This document shows, one piece after another, positions 5,252 through 36,674 of a stretch of DNA of 37,257 nucleotides. Positions within the stretch are counted from its first letter, which is position 1. Every line of letters begins with the position of its first letter. The notes beneath the pieces were generated by a model. The model saw nothing but the letters and a program-made list of their open reading frames with translations, did no database searches and was not told the origin of the DNA. Source of the stretch: Patescibacteria group bacterium (GTDB lineage: Bacteria; Patescibacteriota; WWE3; UBA101185; UBA10185); the NCBI GenBank assembly GCA_019428825.1, contig JAHYJU010000004.1, positions 1 through 37,257 on the forward strand, written 5' to 3'. Position numbers and translations under genes: made by a program.

Positions 5252-5323
5252 AATATGAACATTATATCAGTTCGAATTCCCTGATGGCCTGTGTTTGGGA
5301 ATGTTGTTAGAGGAAAAAACCCT

Positions 5324-5343
5324 GGCTGGGGGACAGGGATTCG
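5324..5343 (-). repeat. duplicated tRNA-Gln 3'-end fragment
   Basis: ggctgggggacagggattcg is identical to 5499-5518 (tRNA 3' end plus two flanking bases). Confidence 0.85.
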
Positions 5344-5352
5344 CCCACTAGT

Positions 5353-5392
5353 CCAAATATCTCTACGTCGCTTTGCTCCTAGAGCTATTTGG
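5353..5392. repeat. stem-loop, 12/13 matched arms, downstream of tRNA-Gln
   Basis: CCAAATATCTCTA ... TAGAGCTATTTGG with loop CGTCGCTTTGCTCC. Confidence 0.7.
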
Positions 5393-5449
5393 CTATTGGC
5401 ACGTCTCCTTCGCTACGCTCAGTCCGACATTCTCATCCCTGTCCAAACA

Positions 5450-5495
5450 AAAGTTCCCGCTAACCTTTCATAGACTCAAGGCTAACGGGAACTTT
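5450..5495 (-). terminator. rho-independent-like terminator downstream of tRNA-Gln
   Basis: Arms AAAGTTCCCGCTAACC / GGCTAACGGGAACTTT; on the minus strand followed by TTTTGTTT. Confidence 0.75.
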
Positions 5496-5500
5496 CGTGG

Positions 5501-5571
5501 CTGGGGGACAGGGATTCGAACCCCAATTACCGCATTCAGAGTGCGAGGTCCTACCATTAGACGATCCCCCA
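5501..5571 (-). tRNA. tRNA-Gln (anticodon CTG)
   Basis: Minus strand TGGGGGATCGTCTAATGGTAGGACCTCGCACTCTGAATGCGGTAATTGGGGTTCGAATCCCTGTCCCCCAG: 7-bp acceptor, anticodon loop CTCTGAA, T-loop GGTTCGAATCC. CCA not encoded. Confidence 0.95.
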
Positions 5572-5641
5572 ATAATATAACAAGTAAATAAGTATTAAAT
5601 TTTCAAAAATTGCTAACAAACGTAATTAAATTAAATGAGTC

Positions 5642-5698
5642 TGATCGCAAGGTCCTCGAGCGAAGCGAGACGGTTCTTCCCATTAGACGATTCCCCAA
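5642..5698 (-). repeat. partial tRNA-Gln 5'-half copy interrupted by a short palindrome
   Basis: Minus strand TTGGGGAATCGTCTAATGG...[CGTCTCGCTTCGCTCG]AGGACCTTGCG compared with the intact TTGGGGGATCGTCTAATGGTAGGACCTCGC. Confidence 0.75.
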
Positions 5699-8765: not shown

Positions 8766-8851
8766 TGAGTTTATTATACGTAATTTACTTTTTTACTCCA
8801 AATTTGCTTTAGTTATTTTTTATGTTTTTTGGTAAAATGTGTTAGTTATTA

Positions 8852-8863
8852 GGCCCCATCGTC
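8852..8863 (+). repeat. duplicated tRNA-Glu 5'-end fragment
   Basis: GGCCCCATCGTC is identical to tRNA-Glu 8984-8995 and is fused to a palindromic segment. Confidence 0.8.
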
Positions 8864-8916
8864 CGCCTATGCTATCCGCTTTCGCTGAAGCTACAGCGAG
8901 ACTGGGCTTCGGCGGA
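8862..8916. repeat. palindromic element between tRNA-Glu 5' fragment and intact tRNA-Glu
   Basis: Outer arms TCCGCC/GGCGGA, inner hairpin TCGCTG-AAGCTA-CAGCGA. Confidence 0.7.
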
Positions 8917-8983
8917 TAAATAGTGGTAAATTTATAGAGCTTTTGCTAAATTAGGTATTCATAGGAAATTTATTATTTTTTAT

Positions 8984-9058
8984 GGCCCCATCGTCTAATG
9001 GTTAGGACGCCAGGTTCTCAACCTGGAAACTCGGGTTCGACTCCCGGTGGGGTCACCA
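8984..9058 (+). tRNA. tRNA-Glu (anticodon CTC), CCA encoded
   Basis: GGCCCCATCGTCTAATGGTTAGGACGCCAGGTTCTCAACCTGGAAACTCGGGTTCGACTCCCGGTGGGGTCACCA folds as a cloverleaf; anticodon loop TTCTCAA. Confidence 0.97.
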
Positions 9059-9104
9059 TGAACAGGTTCACCACTGAACGAAGTGAAGTGGTGGTTCTGT
9101 TCAT
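9058..9104. repeat. near-perfect hairpin abutting the tRNA-Glu 3' end
   Basis: Arms ATGAACAGGTTCACCACT / AGTGGTGGTTCTGTTCAT, 16/18 complementary. Confidence 0.8.
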
Positions 9105-9185
9105 GTGATCTCGCAAGGCAGTTAACTAGCTTTAGCTGGTGCGACAATTACGTAGTGAAGCGGAATAATTGCTTTGCGCAGCAAA

Positions 9186-9204
9186 ACTCCCGGTGGGGTC
9201 ACCA
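9186..9204 (+). repeat. tRNA-Glu 3'-end fragment, copy 2
   Basis: ACTCCCGGTGGGGTCACCA, identical to the intact tRNA 3' terminus. Confidence 0.9.
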
Positions 9205-9273
9205 CCCGCCTTCGATAATGCTACGGCGAGGTTGCAGACCTAGATAGAACTTAATTTACCATTTTGGATTCGG

Positions 9274-9289
9274 CGAAGCTTTAGCGTAG
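9274..9289. repeat. dispersed palindrome core CGAAGCTTTAGCGTAG
   Basis: Exact 16-mer also found at 36541-36556. Confidence 0.8.
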
Positions 9290-9293
9290 TTGA

Positions 9294-9310
9294 TCCCGGT
9301 GGGGTCACCA
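9294..9310 (+). repeat. tRNA-Glu 3'-end fragment, copy 3
   Basis: TCCCGGTGGGGTCACCA, identical to the intact tRNA 3' terminus. Confidence 0.9.
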
Positions 9311-11285: not shown

Positions 11286-11296
11286 AGTTTGGTTCC

Positions 11297-11345
11297 GGGC
11301 TCAGCCCTAGGCTGAGCCCTAGGCTGAGCCCTAGGCTGAGCCCTG
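11297..11345. repeat. 12-bp self-complementary tandem repeat array (GGCTGAGCCCTA)
   Basis: Three units at 11310, 11322 and 11334, preceded by inverted GGGCTCAGCC; arms GGGCTCAGCC/GGCTGAGCCC. Confidence 0.9.
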
Positions 11346-11424
11346 GAAATTTTCAATAGTTAATAATATCAAGTTTGTTATAGGTATCAAGAAAAAGGGT
11401 TTGGTTCCGGGCTGAGCCTGGTGA

Positions 11425-14467: not shown

Positions 14468-17400
14468 ATGAAAAGATTAAGAAAAATGAAAGTCCACGTA
14501 AATAAAATTTTCGCGTATTTCTCTCTTGTTTCGATGTTAACAAACACACTTGCTCCCTTTGCAGCTATGTTACCTGTGTATGCATATGCAGAGGATACAG
14601 GTGCGCCTGTTGAGGAGGTTGTTGTTGAAAATACAGAGACAGATGTGTCGGAAGAAGCCGACACTTCAAGTGCAGCAGATGGACAAGATCTGACTGTTGA
14701 GGAAGAGACAAATGAAAATGAAATAACCGAAGAAGCTAACGTGGAGGCTTTGGAGGAAGAAGGACAAAATCAGGAAGATTTGGGAATATTACCTGAGGAA
14801 AATGAAGATCCTGAAGAAGTTGCGGTTGATCCCGAAGCTCCCAGTATTATAGAGGGAGGCGGGGTTTCCGATTATAATCCTTTTAATGATATTGATGATG
14901 TTGTAGAAGTTTCTGAAATTCCTACTCCTGTAGAAGAGCCTATTGCTGAAGTTGAAGAAACTATAGAAGAGGTTAAGGAGTATGAGTTTTTACAAGATGG
15001 TGTTGAGATAGTAAATAGTGAAAATGATGATTGGAGTGTTGATGGGGAAGTTGCAAAGACTGTTGAAAATGTGAAGGTTGGAGTTAAATATATTTTCCCA
15101 TTGGATGAAGATGTTTCGGTTACTTTTACAAAATTACCAATGTTAGATGAAGATAGATCTACTTTAAGGATTGAAAGAGTTAGAGTAGAGGATTTAAATT
15201 TACCTGAAGAATTTAAAACTGATGCTGAATATGCTTTTGATATTACAACGGATATGGAGAACGGAGAGTTTGAGTATGATTTGACTTTGCCTAAGCCGGA
15301 GGGTGTGGAGGCGGAGGTTGTTTATATTGAAGAATCTATCGAAGAAGTAAAGAGTGGTGTTGAAAGTGAGGATATTAAGAAGGTTGAGAAAGATAAGGTT
15401 GGACAGAAAGAGGGTAGTGTTGAGGTTGAGGGTTTGGATCATTTTACTACTTTTATTGTCGCAACATTTAACTCTGCTACAAATGTCCCTTCTTCTGTAA
15501 AGCTTTATCAGTGGGAAACTAAAGATTCTGGTAAATGGATTACGGGGAACTTAGGAACTTCAAACTCAGATTATAGGGAAGGTGAGGTTGTACCCTTTCA
15601 GTTAGAGATTGGTAAAGTATCTACAGCAAACAATCCCTATAAATTTTCTGTGTGTAGAGATTATGAGGATGGTGATAAAAGAGGTTACTACCAGTTAATG
15701 ACTTATGATTTGAACATAAACCCAATTATTGTTGGTAGTATTGATTATTCAAATGGGCCTTTTAGTGGAACTAATGTTACGAATATTGAATTCAATGAGG
15801 TTGGTGGAAGGGGACTTTGTGCTTCTGGCGCCAGAGAAACTCAAGTGTATTTTGATGTTATAGAATCAACTAAAGATACTTATGTTTATTGGGGGGGTCA
15901 GCTTGCATCTCCTGTAGATGTAGATGTTGGTCTAGGTAACGGTTCCTCTCAATATACAGGTGCAAGTTTACACATGAAACTTCTTTCTCCTAATAAAGAT
16001 CTTTCTATAAACCCTTCAGGTATTATAGAGTTGGCTACAATTACAGTTACCAAAATAGTTGATGAGGGTGAGGCATTACCTTCTGAATGGGGTTTTACTA
16101 TTGATCCTAACCCAAATAATGAGTCCGAACCAAAATACCCAGGAGTAAACAGCGATACTGTAGTTTTTGCCGGTCTTTCAACCGGTATTTATACCATTGA
16201 GGAGTCCTTTGTAGAAGGATACTCGTTTTATTCTGGTTCTGGAACCAATTGCACCTTCGACTCTAACGGTTTAGCTACCGCTACAGTTTCTGAAGGAGTA
16301 GACGCTACCAATGCTAACTGTATCTTTACTAACACACAGCAGTTGGCGGAAATTAATGTTGTTAAATCGTCTACAACAACAAGCATTACTTTTGCAGATC
16401 AGGTAGTTCCTTACACTTTCACAGTCACTAATCCAGGCAACAGAACATTAACCGGTGTTACAGTTACAGACCCTATGTGTGATAAAGATACATTAATTTT
16501 TGTGTATGGGGATACAAATGCTGATGGTGAATTACAGACTGATGAAACTTGGATTTATGCTTGTAATCACACAGTAACTCAAACCGAGATTAATGCGGGT
16601 GGATATCTTTCAAATACAGTAACTGCGGATTCAAATGAATCTGATGAAGATACTGATAGTTTTGATATTCCTATTAGTCAAAATGCAAAACTTTCAATAG
16701 TTAAAACTGCATTACCTACAACTTATTCAGCGGTAGGAAATGTTATTGATTACAGCTTTTTAGTTACAAACTCAGGAAACGTGACAGTAGTGTCACCGTT
16801 TACAGTTACAGATGACAAGGCAACAGATGAGTCATGTCCAGCAACTCCAACTAGTTTAGCTCCAGGAGAATCTATAACTTGTACTGCTAGTTATACAATT
16901 ACTCAAGCTGATCTAGATGCAGGTTTTGTTACAAACGTTGCTTCAGGTCATGGTTACTTTAATGACACTCCGGTTAATTCTCCAACTGATACTGAGACAG
17001 TTAATTCTATTGCAGGAAAAATAATCATAGAGAAACAAACATTACCAGATGGTGAAACTCAGAAGTTTGAATTTACACCAAGTTGGGATTTAACAAATAA
17101 GTACTATCTCATTGATGGGCAGGAAAATATTAGTAATTGGTTAGTTTCAGGCACTTATGTCGTTTTTGAACAAACTCTTGGTGGTTGGGATCTAACTGAT
17201 ATTAGTTGTTCTGTTGTTAATCCTACTACAGGAGGTCAGAGTACCTACAATGGGAATTTATCTTTGGATACTGTTAGTATAAGTTTAGTTGCTGGTGAGA
17301 CAGTAAAATGTGTGTTTACCAATACAAAACTAGGTTCAATATCCGGTATGAAATTTGAAGATGTTGATGGCGATGGTAACTATGATATACCAGAAGGAGA

Positions 17401-20356
17401 TATAGGTCTTGGTGGTTGGACAATCAAGCTTAGTGGAACAGATATGGGTGGTCAAATAGTAAGTTCAACTGCAATAACCGCAGGGGACGGTTCATTTAAT
17501 TTTATCGACCTCTTACCTGGTGAATACACTGTTTGTGAAAATCTGCAACTGGGTTGGATACAGACATGGCCTAGTAATGGGGCACATGATTGTGGCGATG
17601 GAACCTATGGACATCGTGTAGTCTTAGGAGCGGGTGATGTTGTTCCAAATCGTTTGATTGGTAATTTTAAATTAGGCGAAATAACAGCATGTAAATATGT
17701 GGACTACACAGGAGATGGTAATTACCAACCACATGAAGACGTGGCTCTAAAAAACATTAACTTTAATCTATACAAATCAGGTGAGGGTTGGGAATATGTA
17801 ATGTCTAATGAAACAGGTGCTAACGGGTGTGTGAAATTCCCAAATTTAGAGGCTGGTCAATACAAGCTTGAGGAGGATTATACTGATCCTGATCTTGATG
17901 GTTACTACCCAACAGATGGGGTAACCGAATATGATGATATTTGGATATATTCTGGATCTGATGAGACTAGAAGGTTTCTTAACGCTAAGTTTAGAACCAT
18001 CTCAGGAACCAAATTTAATGATCTTAATGGAAATGGGGTTCAAGATGTTGGAGAGTTAGGACTAAAAGGGTGGACAATATATATTGAAGGAAATACCAAT
18101 GGGCAATTTGATCCTGGTGAGATATATACAGTTACAGATCAAGATGGATATTATGAATTTACAGGCTTAGTATCAGATTCTTACAGGGTAGCCGAGCATA
18201 TGAGCTTAGCTCAAATTAATGATGGGTGGGTACAAACCCTTCCGGAAGCAGGTTATTACGATATTGATTTACATATTGAAATAACTTCTTTTGATAATGA
18301 CTTTGGTAATGTTCAATTGACAGATGTTCACGGTTATAAATGGGACGACCAAAATGGTAATGGTTACAGAGATTGTAATGACGGTGGTGAATTCCAATTG
18401 TACCCGGTGCAGTATTGTGAAGATTGGGCCGAACCTTTGTTGCCCGGTTGGACAATTAATCTATATGAGTGGGAAGGTGAGGGATATAGTCCGGTTCCTA
18501 TAAAAACGATGGTAACTAGCAGTGACCCTGCACATTTTGGTTGGTACTGGTTCGAGGGTCTATTCCCCGGGAGATACTTAATATGTGAGGTAAATCAATC
18601 AGGGTGGGATCAAACTTCCCCAACAAATGAGATGGATAACTGTCATGAGATTGATCTCCCCAGTGGTGAGGGAACATGTACTTGGAATAGGACCGACAAC
18701 GCAGTTGTATCCGATCAAATGTGTAACTTCGGTAACCAATACATCGAACCCGAACTCTCCATAGCAAAATGGAACGATTCTACAGAACCTGAGGAGATAG
18801 ATAACGAAGTTTTGTTCACTATAAGAGTTACCGCACACAAAAATGAAGTAAAAGATGTCTATGTATACGACCTATTCTCAGAGGGATTTGATTACGTATC
18901 AGGAAGCTGGACCGCTAAATCTAACGATGGTAGGGATTTAAAGGCTTTAGGAATTACTTTAGAGCCTGTATACGCCTCACCCGCTGCTTGGTACTTGGGT
19001 GATCTAAAAGGGGATGAAGTTGTAACCTTAACTTATCTTGCTAGAGTAACCGAGGATGTCGAGCCAGGTATATATAAAGACCTAGCTTGGGCACAAGGAG
19101 AAAGCAGATACAGTGAAGTTTTGGGATACTCCGAACCCGAGGGTTATGTAAATGATACCTTTGTTGGTACAGAAGTAGAGGTTGTTGTAGACCCCGACCC
19201 ACTAAAAACAAAAGTAGATGTAAAAGAAGAAGGCGAAGTATTAGGAGTTGCTATACTTCCCGCTACGGGAGCCAGAACAATTTGGTTAAACATAGTAGCA
19301 ACACTAGCTTCAATCGGAGGATTATTACTGCTCGTAGGAGGTTTAGGAATAATGTTTAAGAAAAAAGAAAAAACAATCAAAAAAGGTAAAAAAGTACTTT
19401 TAGGACTACTTACCTTTGGATTCTTCGCTCTATTTAGCTACAAAGTATATGCCGCAGGTACGGTGGTAAGAATTAGTCAACCGGAATCTCCCGCATCATC
19501 GGAATTTAACTTAGTATTTGTTGCAATGGACATAGAAGACAGAACCATGCAAGCAAAATGCTACGTTCAAAAGCCAGGCAGTGTTTCATTCACAACCTTT
19601 GGTTCTGCAATAACAATCGACTCAGGTGATAGCGGAGACTCCAGGACATGTTTAGTAACAGAATCAGTTCTAAGCGGTGACGGAGAATACAAATTCAAAG
19701 TTGGAGTAGTTCCTGGTAGTGATTCCGAAGTTTTCTCCAACGAAGTAACTGTTGATTACGACGGTGATGGTCCTGATAGACCAAAGTACATTGAAAAAGA
19801 GAAAAAATCAGATTGTAAGTATGAGATAAAAATAAAAACAGCCGATGACGGAGAAACTTCCTATATCAAAATTTACAGAGATGACGACAAAGAGATAGGC
19901 ATAAACGATTCAAACAAAATAAAAACAAAAACCATAGGACCTGATGACAAATACGAATTCACTGATGAACTCTATGGAGGAGATTGCGGTAAAACATGGT
20001 ATTACGCAGTAGTTGCATTTGATGATGCAGGAAATGCTTCAAAACCAAGACCTGAAACAATTACAACAACCACAACAATTACCGAAGAGGAAGAAGTTAC
20101 CGAAGCAATAGTAGTTGAAGGTGCCGGAGGAATTGGAGGAGAAGGCCTGGCCGGTGAAGGAGCAGAAGGAGTCGAAGGTGAAGAGGGGGCCGAAGCAATT
20201 GATATAGAATTTGGTGAAGGTGAAGACGGCGAAGTTCTTGGAGAAGAAACTTCCGAAGCAGTAAAAACTCTCACTAGATCTCCTTGGTTCTGGATTGTTT
20301 TAGCAGGTTTAGGTATAGTAATCATTGGTGCAGTCAAGAAATCTAAAAAAGCGTAA
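14468..20356 (+). CDS. giant surface protein: signal peptide, acidic region, DUF11-like and SdrD-B-like repeats, internal LPATG, second exported domain, C-terminal TM
   Basis: VVPYTFTVTNPGNRTLTGVTVTD / VIDYSFLVTNSGNVTVVSPFTVTD (DUF11-like); SISGMKFEDVDGDGNYDIPEGDIGLGGWTI, TISGTKFNDLNGNGVQDVGELGLKGWTI (SdrD-B-like); LPATGARTIWLN...FKKKEK at 19256 onward. Confidence 0.93.
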   Translation: MKRLRKMKVHVNKIFAYFSLVSMLTNTLAPFAAMLPVYAYAEDTGAPVEEVVVENTETDVSEEADTSSAADGQDLTVEEETNENEITEEANVEALEEEGQNQEDLGILPEENEDPEEVAVDPEAPSIIEGGGVSDYNPFNDIDDVVEVSEIPTPVEEPIAEVEETIEEVKEYEFLQDGVEIVNSENDDWSVDGEVAKTVENVKVGVKYIFPLDEDVSVTFTKLPMLDEDRSTLRIERVRVEDLNLPEEFKTDAEYAFDITTDMENGEFEYDLTLPKPEGVEAEVVYIEESIEEVKSGVESEDIKKVEKDKVGQKEGSVEVEGLDHFTTFIVATFNSATNVPSSVKLYQWETKDSGKWITGNLGTSNSDYREGEVVPFQLEIGKVSTANNPYKFSVCRDYEDGDKRGYYQLMTYDLNINPIIVGSIDYSNGPFSGTNVTNIEFNEVGGRGLCASGARETQVYFDVIESTKDTYVYWGGQLASPVDVDVGLGNGSSQYTGASLHMKLLSPNKDLSINPSGIIELATITVTKIVDEGEALPSEWGFTIDPNPNNESEPKYPGVNSDTVVFAGLSTGIYTIEESFVEGYSFYSGSGTNCTFDSNGLATATVSEGVDATNANCIFTNTQQLAEINVVKSSTTTSITFADQVVPYTFTVTNPGNRTLTGVTVTDPMCDKDTLIFVYGDTNADGELQTDETWIYACNHTVTQTEINAGGYLSNTVTADSNESDEDTDSFDIPISQNAKLSIVKTALPTTYSAVGNVIDYSFLVTNSGNVTVVSPFTVTDDKATDESCPATPTSLAPGESITCTASYTITQADLDAGFVTNVASGHGYFNDTPVNSPTDTETVNSIAGKIIIEKQTLPDGETQKFEFTPSWDLTNKYYLIDGQENISNWLVSGTYVVFEQTLGGWDLTDISCSVVNPTTGGQSTYNGNLSLDTVSISLVAGETVKCVFTNTKLGSISGMKFEDVDGDGNYDIPEGDIGLGGWTIKLSGTDMGGQIVSSTAITAGDGSFNFIDLLPGEYTVCENLQLGWIQTWPSNGAHDCGDGTYGHRVVLGAGDVVPNRLIGNFKLGEITACKYVDYTGDGNYQPHEDVALKNINFNLYKSGEGWEYVMSNETGANGCVKFPNLEAGQYKLEEDYTDPDLDGYYPTDGVTEYDDIWIYSGSDETRRFLNAKFRTISGTKFNDLNGNGVQDVGELGLKGWTIYIEGNTNGQFDPGEIYTVTDQDGYYEFTGLVSDSYRVAEHMSLAQINDGWVQTLPEAGYYDIDLHIEITSFDNDFGNVQLTDVHGYKWDDQNGNGYRDCNDGGEFQLYPVQYCEDWAEPLLPGWTINLYEWEGEGYSPVPIKTMVTSSDPAHFGWYWFEGLFPGRYLICEVNQSGWDQTSPTNEMDNCHEIDLPSGEGTCTWNRTDNAVVSDQMCNFGNQYIEPELSIAKWNDSTEPEEIDNEVLFTIRVTAHKNEVKDVYVYDLFSEGFDYVSGSWTAKSNDGRDLKALGITLEPVYASPAAWYLGDLKGDEVVTLTYLARVTEDVEPGIYKDLAWAQGESRYSEVLGYSEPEGYVNDTFVGTEVEVVVDPDPLKTKVDVKEEGEVLGVAILPATGARTIWLNIVATLASIGGLLLLVGGLGIMFKKKEKTIKKGKKVLLGLLTFGFFALFSYKVYAAGTVVRISQPESPASSEFNLVFVAMDIEDRTMQAKCYVQKPGSVSFTTFGSAITIDSGDSGDSRTCLVTESVLSGDGEYKFKVGVVPGSDSEVFSNEVTVDYDGDGPDRPKYIEKEKKSDCKYEIKIKTADDGETSYIKIYRDDDKEIGINDSNKIKTKTIGPDDKYEFTDELYGGDCGKTWYYAVVAFDDAGNASKPRPETITTTTTITEEEEVTEAIVVEGAGGIGGEGLAGEGAEGVEGEEGAEAIDIEFGEGEDGEVLGEETSEAVKTLTRSPWFWIVLAGLGIVIIGAVKKSKKA

Positions 20357-36526: not shown

Positions 36527-36569
36527 AGAAGCTCCCTCGCCGAAGCTTTAGCGTAGGCGGGGAGCTTCT
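36527..36569 (+). terminator. long hairpin after HU gene containing the dispersed palindrome core
   Basis: AGAAGCTCCC(T)CGCC ... GGCGGGGAGCTTCT, loop GAAGCTTTAGCGTA; only a delayed T-rich stretch follows. Confidence 0.7.
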
Positions 36570-36674
36570 ACGTTCGTTATACTTTTTCGTTAGTATTTAA
36601 ATTTTCAAATAATGATATACTTCTAAGCCTTTATATTTTAAAGATTTTTAACAAAGTGATAAAATAACACCCGT

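Follow-up and report, generated by a model that had tools for sequence, protein, structure and literature searches.

Islander-type tDNA islands and prophages split a tRNA or tmRNA gene, restore it with the insert and leave a displaced fragment to mark the far end. Regenerated gene and displaced fragment form their signature; up to 19 islands occur per genome, and 5' fragments in 159 of 3919 islands (PMC4383910). Stem-flanked loops suit tyrosine recombinases according to a review of archaeal integrases, and rebuilt bacterial tRNAs keep their original promoter with very few exceptions (PMC8371274). tRNA fragments arising from integration are already known (PMC9897764). The units described here follow the same split-and-restore layout, share T-loop and anticodon-loop crossovers with the islands and likewise form tandem arrays. 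Unlike the islands, they measure ~90-200 bp rather than kilobases, contain no integrase gene and reach 20 of 46 tRNAs in one genome. Their 5' fragments are nearly as common as 3' fragments, again unlike those of islands (159/3919; PMC4383910).

Similarities extend to other systems. Integron cassettes share with the units small size, direct tandem arrangement and an imperfect inverted repeat that matches the crossover core and forms a branched hairpin. The core of the units, however, is tRNA sequence rather than RYYYAAC/GTTRRRY, their platform is a tRNA gene, and both an integron integrase and an ORF are missing. CTXphi-type phages have no integrase of their own and use a folded, forked single-stranded hairpin as attachment site. 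Host Xer would likewise suffice for the units, although these target tRNA genes rather than dif and lack phage genes, and their use of Xer is only conjecture. REP, REPIN and MITE-like repeats resemble the units in being short, palindromic, non-coding and dispersed, and an insert beginning CCCGCCTTCG... is of that sort; the units, in contrast, need no RAYT and are position-specific in tRNA genes, which are rebuilt. Tycheposons and tRNA-carrying phages are large elements with genes. They offer a parallel to tRNA-Val(TAC) of a relative, where carried tRNA sequence takes over from the resident gene. No description of gene-less units of this kind was found in the open-access literature searched. 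The units work like tDNA islands crossed with integron cassettes, and are members of neither because integrase and core boxes are missing. We favor, as reasonably probable, their interpretation as miniature integrative tDNA-targeting cassettes with a folded attC/CTXphi-like site, mobilized in trans.

The window, by which we mean the whole 37,257-nucleotide stretch analyzed, is contig C64 of source genome G000 (842 kb, 71 contigs, 46 tRNAs). The initial annotation had described a tRNA-Glu at 8852-9310 among fragments of its own ends and palindromes; every piece was recovered to within 1-2 bases. The array (8825-9310) reads as follows.

8825-8851, plus strand: ancestral tRNA-Glu promoter region TTTTTTGGTAAAATGTGTTAGTTATTA, matched to congeners and now upstream of the displaced 5' fragment
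8852-8863, plus strand: displaced tRNA-Glu 5' end, nt 1-12, GGCCCCATCGTC, an exact repeat of 8984-8995
8864-8914, plus strand: palindromic body of the tRNA-Glu(CTC) 5' unit, read from the sequence; a shorter homologue lies in the tRNA-Glu(TTC) 5' unit (L054)
8915-8983, plus strand: AT-rich region, presumed site of the unit-supplied promoter from its position and its absence from relatives; promoter function is inferred
8984-9058, plus strand: intact tRNA-Glu(CTC), CCA encoded (ARAGORN and Rfam RF00005, 63 bits)
9057-9105, plus strand: terminator-like hairpin just 3' of CCA, with 19-bp arms, 84% complementary, seen in the sequence
9106-9141, plus strand: body of the first tRNA-Glu(CTC) 3' unit, homologous to the tRNA-Glu(TTC) body
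9142-9144, plus strand: start of the first displaced 3' end, CGA, tRNA nt 56-58
9145-9186, plus strand: 42-bp nested palindrome interrupting the first displaced 3' end at tRNA position 58/59, with homologues in tRNA-Glu(TTC) and tRNA-Leu(CAA) units at this very point
9187-9204, plus strand: remainder of the first displaced 3' end, CTCCCGGTGGGGTCACCA
9205-9293, plus strand: second downstream insert, with palindrome CCCGCCTTCG... at 9205-9235 and a right palindrome from 9266
9294-9310, plus strand: outermost displaced 3' end, TCCCGGTGGGGTCACCA

We assign the hairpin at 9057-9105 to the start of the 3' unit, by analogy with the arrangement elsewhere. Starting at C56, the first displaced 3' end covers 21 nt and is split by the 42-bp palindrome, a feature that the initial annotation did not mention. 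The 17-nt sequence TCCCGGTGGGGTCACCA occurs exactly at 9042-9058, 9188-9204 and 9294-9310, the second copy matching over 18 nt (9187-9204), and the 16-mer CCCGGTGGGGTCACCA has these three tRNA-Glu(CTC) sites as its only exact occurrences genome-wide. A left palindrome related to CCCGCCTTCG... is also found directly 3' of CCA at other tRNAs; this insert is a third, more MITE-like kind. Elsewhere in the window, a hairpin AGAAGCTCCC...GGGAGCTTCT (36530-36570) has a palindrome, TCGCCGAAGCTTTAGCGTAG, near-identical to one in the tRNA-Glu array, and looks like a dispersed palindrome serving as terminator. Tandem 12-bp repeats (GGCTGAGCCCTA) make up a palindromic block that lies between two genes at 11287-11418, its left part being repeated at 11399. 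At 14468-20356, a 1962-aa ORF with SdrD-B, SpaA and DUF11-type domains encodes a large surface or adhesin-like protein.

The window's only other tRNA, tRNA-Gln(CTG), has the same architecture, which was missed in the initial annotation.

5680-5697, minus strand: displaced tRNA-Gln 5' end TGGGGAATCGTCTAATGG
5639-5679, minus strand: body of the tRNA-Gln 5' unit, with tRNA nt 11-18 repeated in inverted orientation at its end, GATCAGAC
5498-5571, minus strand: intact tRNA-Gln(CTG) (ARAGORN and Rfam)
5448-5497, minus strand: perfect terminator-like hairpin 3' of CCA
5330-5444, minus strand: tRNA-Gln 3' unit with a three-way-junction fold, matched by covariance model R1 (E 2.4e-4)
5323-5343, minus strand: displaced tRNA-Gln 3' end, exactly 21 nt from C56, CGAATCCCTGTCCCCCAGCCA

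The left stem of the 3' unit, GGACAGGGAT, is complementary to tRNA nt 59-68. The 5'-unit body belongs to a family that recurs at tRNA-Gln(TTG), tRNA-Asn and tRNA-Arg(TCT).

End fragments of this kind were sought at other tRNAs and in relatives, and were found in G000, in relatives and in closed genomes. The flanks of all 46 G000 tRNAs were scanned for copies of each tRNA's own ends, which lay beside ~20 of them. Under stringent thresholds, 14/46 tRNAs had a 3' copy (score of at least 14, within 700 bp) and 12/46 a 5' copy (score of at least 12). These are not chance matches, because a swap control, with the ends of other tRNAs compared to the same flanks, gave just 7/2070 for 3' and 12/2070 for 5' ends. 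Among 21 tRNAs sampled in G002, of the same genus, 3' copies occurred at 7 and 5' copies at 5. Units were also present in G009, G005 and G011 of the same family. Own-end copies were detected at none of the tRNAs of congeners G001 and G003 (0/50 and 0/49), assemblies of few contigs. A motif of the commonest body picked out candidate division WWE3 (Katanobacteria), including two closed genomes: chromosome CP006914.1 carried 3' copies at 11/45 and 5' copies at 3/45 tRNAs, and RIFOXYC1_FULL_40_10 had four of each at its 48 tRNAs. Misassembly is excluded, with the same units at the same tRNA positions in closed, curated WWE3 genomes and in independent assemblies. As a separate observation, the start of G000 contig C27 and the end of C49 (L054, L006) both terminate within tRNA-Glu(TTC) 3'-unit copies. 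This array probably broke the assembly, and the two contigs may be joined.

A covariance model of this commonest (type-1) body matched 12/48 genomes of the class, of which eleven belong to a single family. The 24-base motif also gave many matches in Streptomyces, Gemmatimonadetes and others, taken as chance matches in high-GC sequence. Among the tested motif matches outside WWE3, the model matched only one Saccharibacteria and one Parcubacteria record, with a single type-1 match each, both adjoining tRNA-Glu. The Saccharibacteria locus (L271:6600-6850) contains a decayed tRNA-Glu copy with its T-arm apparently interrupted by a type-1 body, next to an intact tRNA-Glu. In the Parcubacteria locus (L297:2126-2481), the hairpin 3' of tRNA-Glu includes an inverted copy of the gene's own 3' end (TGAGGTCAC...GTGACCTCA) and is followed by two bodies in tandem. 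A type-1 unit was also seen at a tmRNA 3' end, with a copy of that end (L352, G046:C5, near 15232-15326). At three further loci (L357, L359, L362) no intact tRNA accompanies the unit: ahead of the hairpin stand only the final 7-11 nt of the tRNA 3' end, as would result from loss of the tRNA body.

Breakpoints were confined to few positions. Of 55 displaced 3' ends across genomes, 31 were exactly 21 nt long (C56 of the T-loop to CCA) and 13 were 19 nt long (from A58); four measured 42-43 nt and started in the anticodon. The crossover of 3' units lies between GTGAC and CGA. Displaced 5' ends stop near nt 13, 18-21 or 34-35, with peaks at 13, 18 and 34-35 nt. The break thus falls within the D-arm, D-loop, anticodon loop or T-loop, from where the fragment extends to the mature end. 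Units measure ~90-200 bp (93 nt for the type-1 fold), the distance from CCA to the copy is usually 120-150 bp, and genes are absent apart from one GIY-YIG case. The 5' units mirror the 3' units: a displaced end is followed by a hairpin body, an inverted copy of the last nucleotides of that end, an AT-rich stretch and the new 5' end. At tRNA-Gln(TTG), the loci of G002 (L112, G002:C53) and G000 (L042, G000:C65) have an identical terminator-like hairpin and stem and completely different bodies, as if hairpin tips had been exchanged.

Type-1 3' units fold into a three-way junction with a basal stem in which the displaced tRNA end pairs with its own inverted copy, and two hairpins with conserved internal loops. 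In an alignment of 21 distinct units (28 pairs), 89.8% of cells paired, compared to 76% after shuffling and 28-39% after sliding. Covariation was evident from 83 double-change cells against 25 +/- 4 in shuffles; opposite tRNA position 59 alone, five pair types were seen. G-U pairs made up only ~2%, from which we weakly infer that the fold acts as single-stranded DNA rather than RNA. An inverted copy matching at least 8/9 was present in 10/30 5' units versus 13/754 controls. The same test was weak for all 3'-unit families pooled (10/55 vs 41/2100), leaving a clear signal only in the aligned type-1 family and the 5' units. By the standard of integron attC sites, a folding inverted-repeat core with the crossover at one end, the units satisfy fold and core pairing; recombination is not shown. 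Rfam (cmscan of unit-bearing loci) returned tRNA, weak tRNA-related matches and tmRNA only, with no known RNA family for the body.

The fold could nevertheless serve RNA instead of DNA. Covariation, and breakpoints at loops and mature ends that resemble tRNA cleavage fragments, would suit a process at the RNA level, in which reverse transcription of such loop-cleaved fragments precedes their integration, or the folds function as structural RNAs. We give this scarcely any credence, since reverse transcriptase genes are absent from both closed unit-bearing genomes and present in unit-free congeners, and since the units hold promoter-side sequence absent from any mature tRNA.

The direction of insertion was examined through flanking sequence. 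The 80 bp upstream of the displaced tRNA-Glu(CTC) 5' fragment match the region upstream of tRNA-Glu(CTC) in G001 and G003 (z 7.0 and 8.3, 0/200 shuffles), whereas the sequence upstream of the working gene shows no match to these regions (z 0.3 and -1.1). Judged by this comparison with congeners, the ancestral promoter adjoins the displaced 5' fragment and not the working tRNA. The tRNA-Gln(CTG) flanks lean the same way. At tRNA-Arg(CCT), the closed genome G019 carries a 141-bp insert that is absent from G009, whose tRNA is identical, and the sequence after the displaced CCA matches that 3' of the G009 tRNA. A 108-bp 5' unit at tRNA-Val(TAC) of G019 is likewise absent from G009. In such empty/filled pairs the displaced fragment keeps the original flank, and therefore the insert supplies the working end. 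Several pairs favor the working-gene side instead, partly because the relative keeps a decayed unit, as at tRNA-Asp in G002 and tRNA-Ser(GGA) in G019.

The tRNA-Arg(CCT) insert and the position of the ancestral tRNA-Glu promoter bear out the core of the initial annotation, namely that small palindromic units without genes integrated repeatedly and the tRNA was regenerated each time. Sequences after successive CCA ends are mostly unrelated, and plain duplication of tRNA plus spacer applies to a few recent arrays only (Val-GAC, Ala-GGC, Gln-TTG, Glu-TTC at contig ends). The initial placement of the insertions at tRNA ends does not survive: the insertion points lie within tRNA loops, except for the CCCGCCTTCG... 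insert directly after CCA. The proposed REP/MITE-like character stands in its MITE half for that insert; the REP/RAYT half fails, with Y1 transposase absent from several unit genomes and the main bodies being branched, conserved folds.

Some inserts also differ from the gene they entered. At tRNA-Val(TAC) of G002, displaced halves GGGTCCG... and ...CGGACCC ACCA flank a different working gene, GGGCGAT...ATCGCCC, and joined together the two halves make a valid tRNA-Val(TAC) by ARAGORN. The same locus in G000 contains layered older 5' halves. The displaced half at tRNA-Thr(CGT) of G002 retains the relatives' acceptor strand GCCAGAG, and the working gene has GCCGAAG/CTTCGGC, with both strands changed. 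A one-base difference at tRNA-Lys(CTT) of G019 has the same sense. A scan for further nested whole-tRNA insertions like Val-TAC returned that locus only. By the Islander standard, then, the units have a regenerated tRNA and a displaced fragment of the same gene in direct orientation. The fragment on the original flank and the absence of the insert from relatives are also met, with some comparisons ambiguous. The missing tRNA part supplied by the insert is foreign sequence at three loci and an identical copy at others.

These loci bear on whether the displaced ends are mere target-site duplications. An unknown transposase making a staggered cut between a tRNA loop and the mature end would duplicate 13-43 nt on either side of a MITE-like element, which would explain the matching end on homologous bodies and the identity of most displaced and working ends, and likewise predicts a displaced end with its original flank. 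We consider this unlikely without dismissing it. The working sequence departs from the ancestral fragment at Val(TAC) and Thr(CGT), both in G002, and at Lys(CTT) in G019; for Val and Thr the change affects both acceptor strands. These differences argue against simple target duplication there. Comparison of displaced and working genes argues instead, at least at these three loci, that the element brings tRNA sequence. Duplication lengths (13, 18-21, 35, 19, 21, 43) also vary in a manner unlike one transposase, classical terminal inverted repeats are missing, and no transposase family was found that tracks with the units. Elsewhere the displaced and working ends mostly do not differ, and for those loci target duplication therefore cannot be excluded.

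The mover of the cassettes was sought among known gene families. G000 has only two Xer-type recombinases, both outside units, and between one and four tyrosine recombinases, chiefly the same two Xer-type proteins, were present in the relatives searched, with or without units. No integrase gene lies inside the units. G000 has no IntI-type integrase; its two recombinases scored 127.8 and 45.4 bits against a cut-off of 265. Y1_Tnp (RAYT) was not found in unit-bearing G002, G009 or G011. As candidate movers, RAYT/REP, reverse transcriptase, GIY-YIG and a dedicated integrase were rejected, as none of them, nor any other gene family searched, tracks with the units. Circular or free forms of the units were not seen. 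A phage or plasmid source was also rejected: phage matches were to tRNA-Glu itself only, plasmids gave nothing, and viral contigs contained no unit, the single match there being a high-GC chance match that lacked the fold. Separately, a frame-broken reverse-transcriptase gene lies beside repeated variable-looking segments and a GIY-YIG ORF in G000 (L163, C1:23319-25800), and resembles a diversity-generating retroelement.

At tRNA-Ser(GCT) of G000 (L037:9160-9601, contig C4), a 338-bp unit has a GIY-YIG nuclease ORF flanked by palindromes and ends in 17 nt of displaced 3' end, a possible autonomous homing form. This insert, together with GIY-YIG genes adjoining tRNA-Gln in other WWE3-class families, would be expected if the units were GIY-YIG homing elements and their gene-less derivatives, the nuclease cutting a tRNA end that the element restores. 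Such an origin is highly improbable for the units at large, as a long UvrC-like ORF is the sole GIY-YIG match in unit-rich G009 and G002, and the T-loop bodies are unrelated in sequence to the GIY-YIG insert. Another source could be ordinary integrase-bearing tDNA islands that lost their interiors and kept their att sites. Regenerated gene and displaced fragment follow the same logic as in Islander islands (PMC4383910), and T-loop and anticodon-loop crossovers are already known sites (PMC8371274). Random deletions, however, would not leave a uniform short length and a conserved structure across tRNAs, genomes and classes, and a full-length island was seen at none of the loci. Given also the Islander maximum of 19 islands per genome and the scarcity of 5' fragments (159/3919 only; PMC4383910), we regard island remnants as very unlikely.

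In the cassette interpretation that we prefer, gene-less units, normally of ~90-200 bp, would target tRNA genes and tmRNA, inserting at a fixed loop position: D-arm 13/14, D-loop ~18-21, anticodon loop 34/35, or T-loop 55/56 or 57/58. Insertion would split the gene and push one original end outwards with its flank. An upstream unit would supply promoter and 5' end, and a downstream unit the 3' end with CCA and a terminator-like hairpin; anticodon-loop insertion could bring a whole tRNA. Later insertions into the restored gene would build arrays and nested layers of fragments. The fold, with tRNA core and inverted copy as basal stem, is predicted to serve single-strand recombination in the manner of integron attC or CTXphi attP. 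A tyrosine recombinase, possibly a host Xer protein, would act on it in trans.

Genome comparison establishes presence and absence in relatives, clean insertion and a displaced end that keeps its flank. It also establishes that breakpoints are fixed, that sequence is imported at three loci and that the fold covaries. Action of a tyrosine recombinase in trans on a folded attachment site is an inference from architecture, namely loop breakpoints, a core paired with its inverted copy and direct arrays; the enzyme is unidentified and there are no recombination data. Several findings count against the cassette model: no gene tracks with the units, free forms and viral or plasmid copies were not seen, the fold could serve RNA, and several empty/filled pairs favor the working-gene side. 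Near-identical bodies are also found at different tRNAs, each with the right end, for which ordinary attP specificity offers no explanation, and the fragments lack a shared 7-bp overlap at their start, unlike classical tyrosine integrase sites. Only tentatively would we go further and propose a distinct class of mobile DNA: gene-less tRNA cassettes with a single-strand folded site drawn from a host tRNA arm, able to enter through any tRNA loop and to replace promoter, terminator, either end or a whole tRNA. Mobilized in trans by a housekeeping recombinase, such cassettes would keep reassembling the tRNA genes of these bacteria from interchangeable parts.

tRNA genes are usually regarded as stable targets with their own promoter. 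Here nearly half of those in one genome have been broken and restored; some gained a new promoter, and a relative has some that contain foreign sequence. In these genomes, tRNA ends, promoters and tRNA-like fragments are easily misannotated. The units also offer a natural test case for the action of host Xer-type recombinases on folded single strands at tRNA genes. If the interpretation is true, these small-genome candidate-phyla bacteria would possess a mobile system having no gene of its own.
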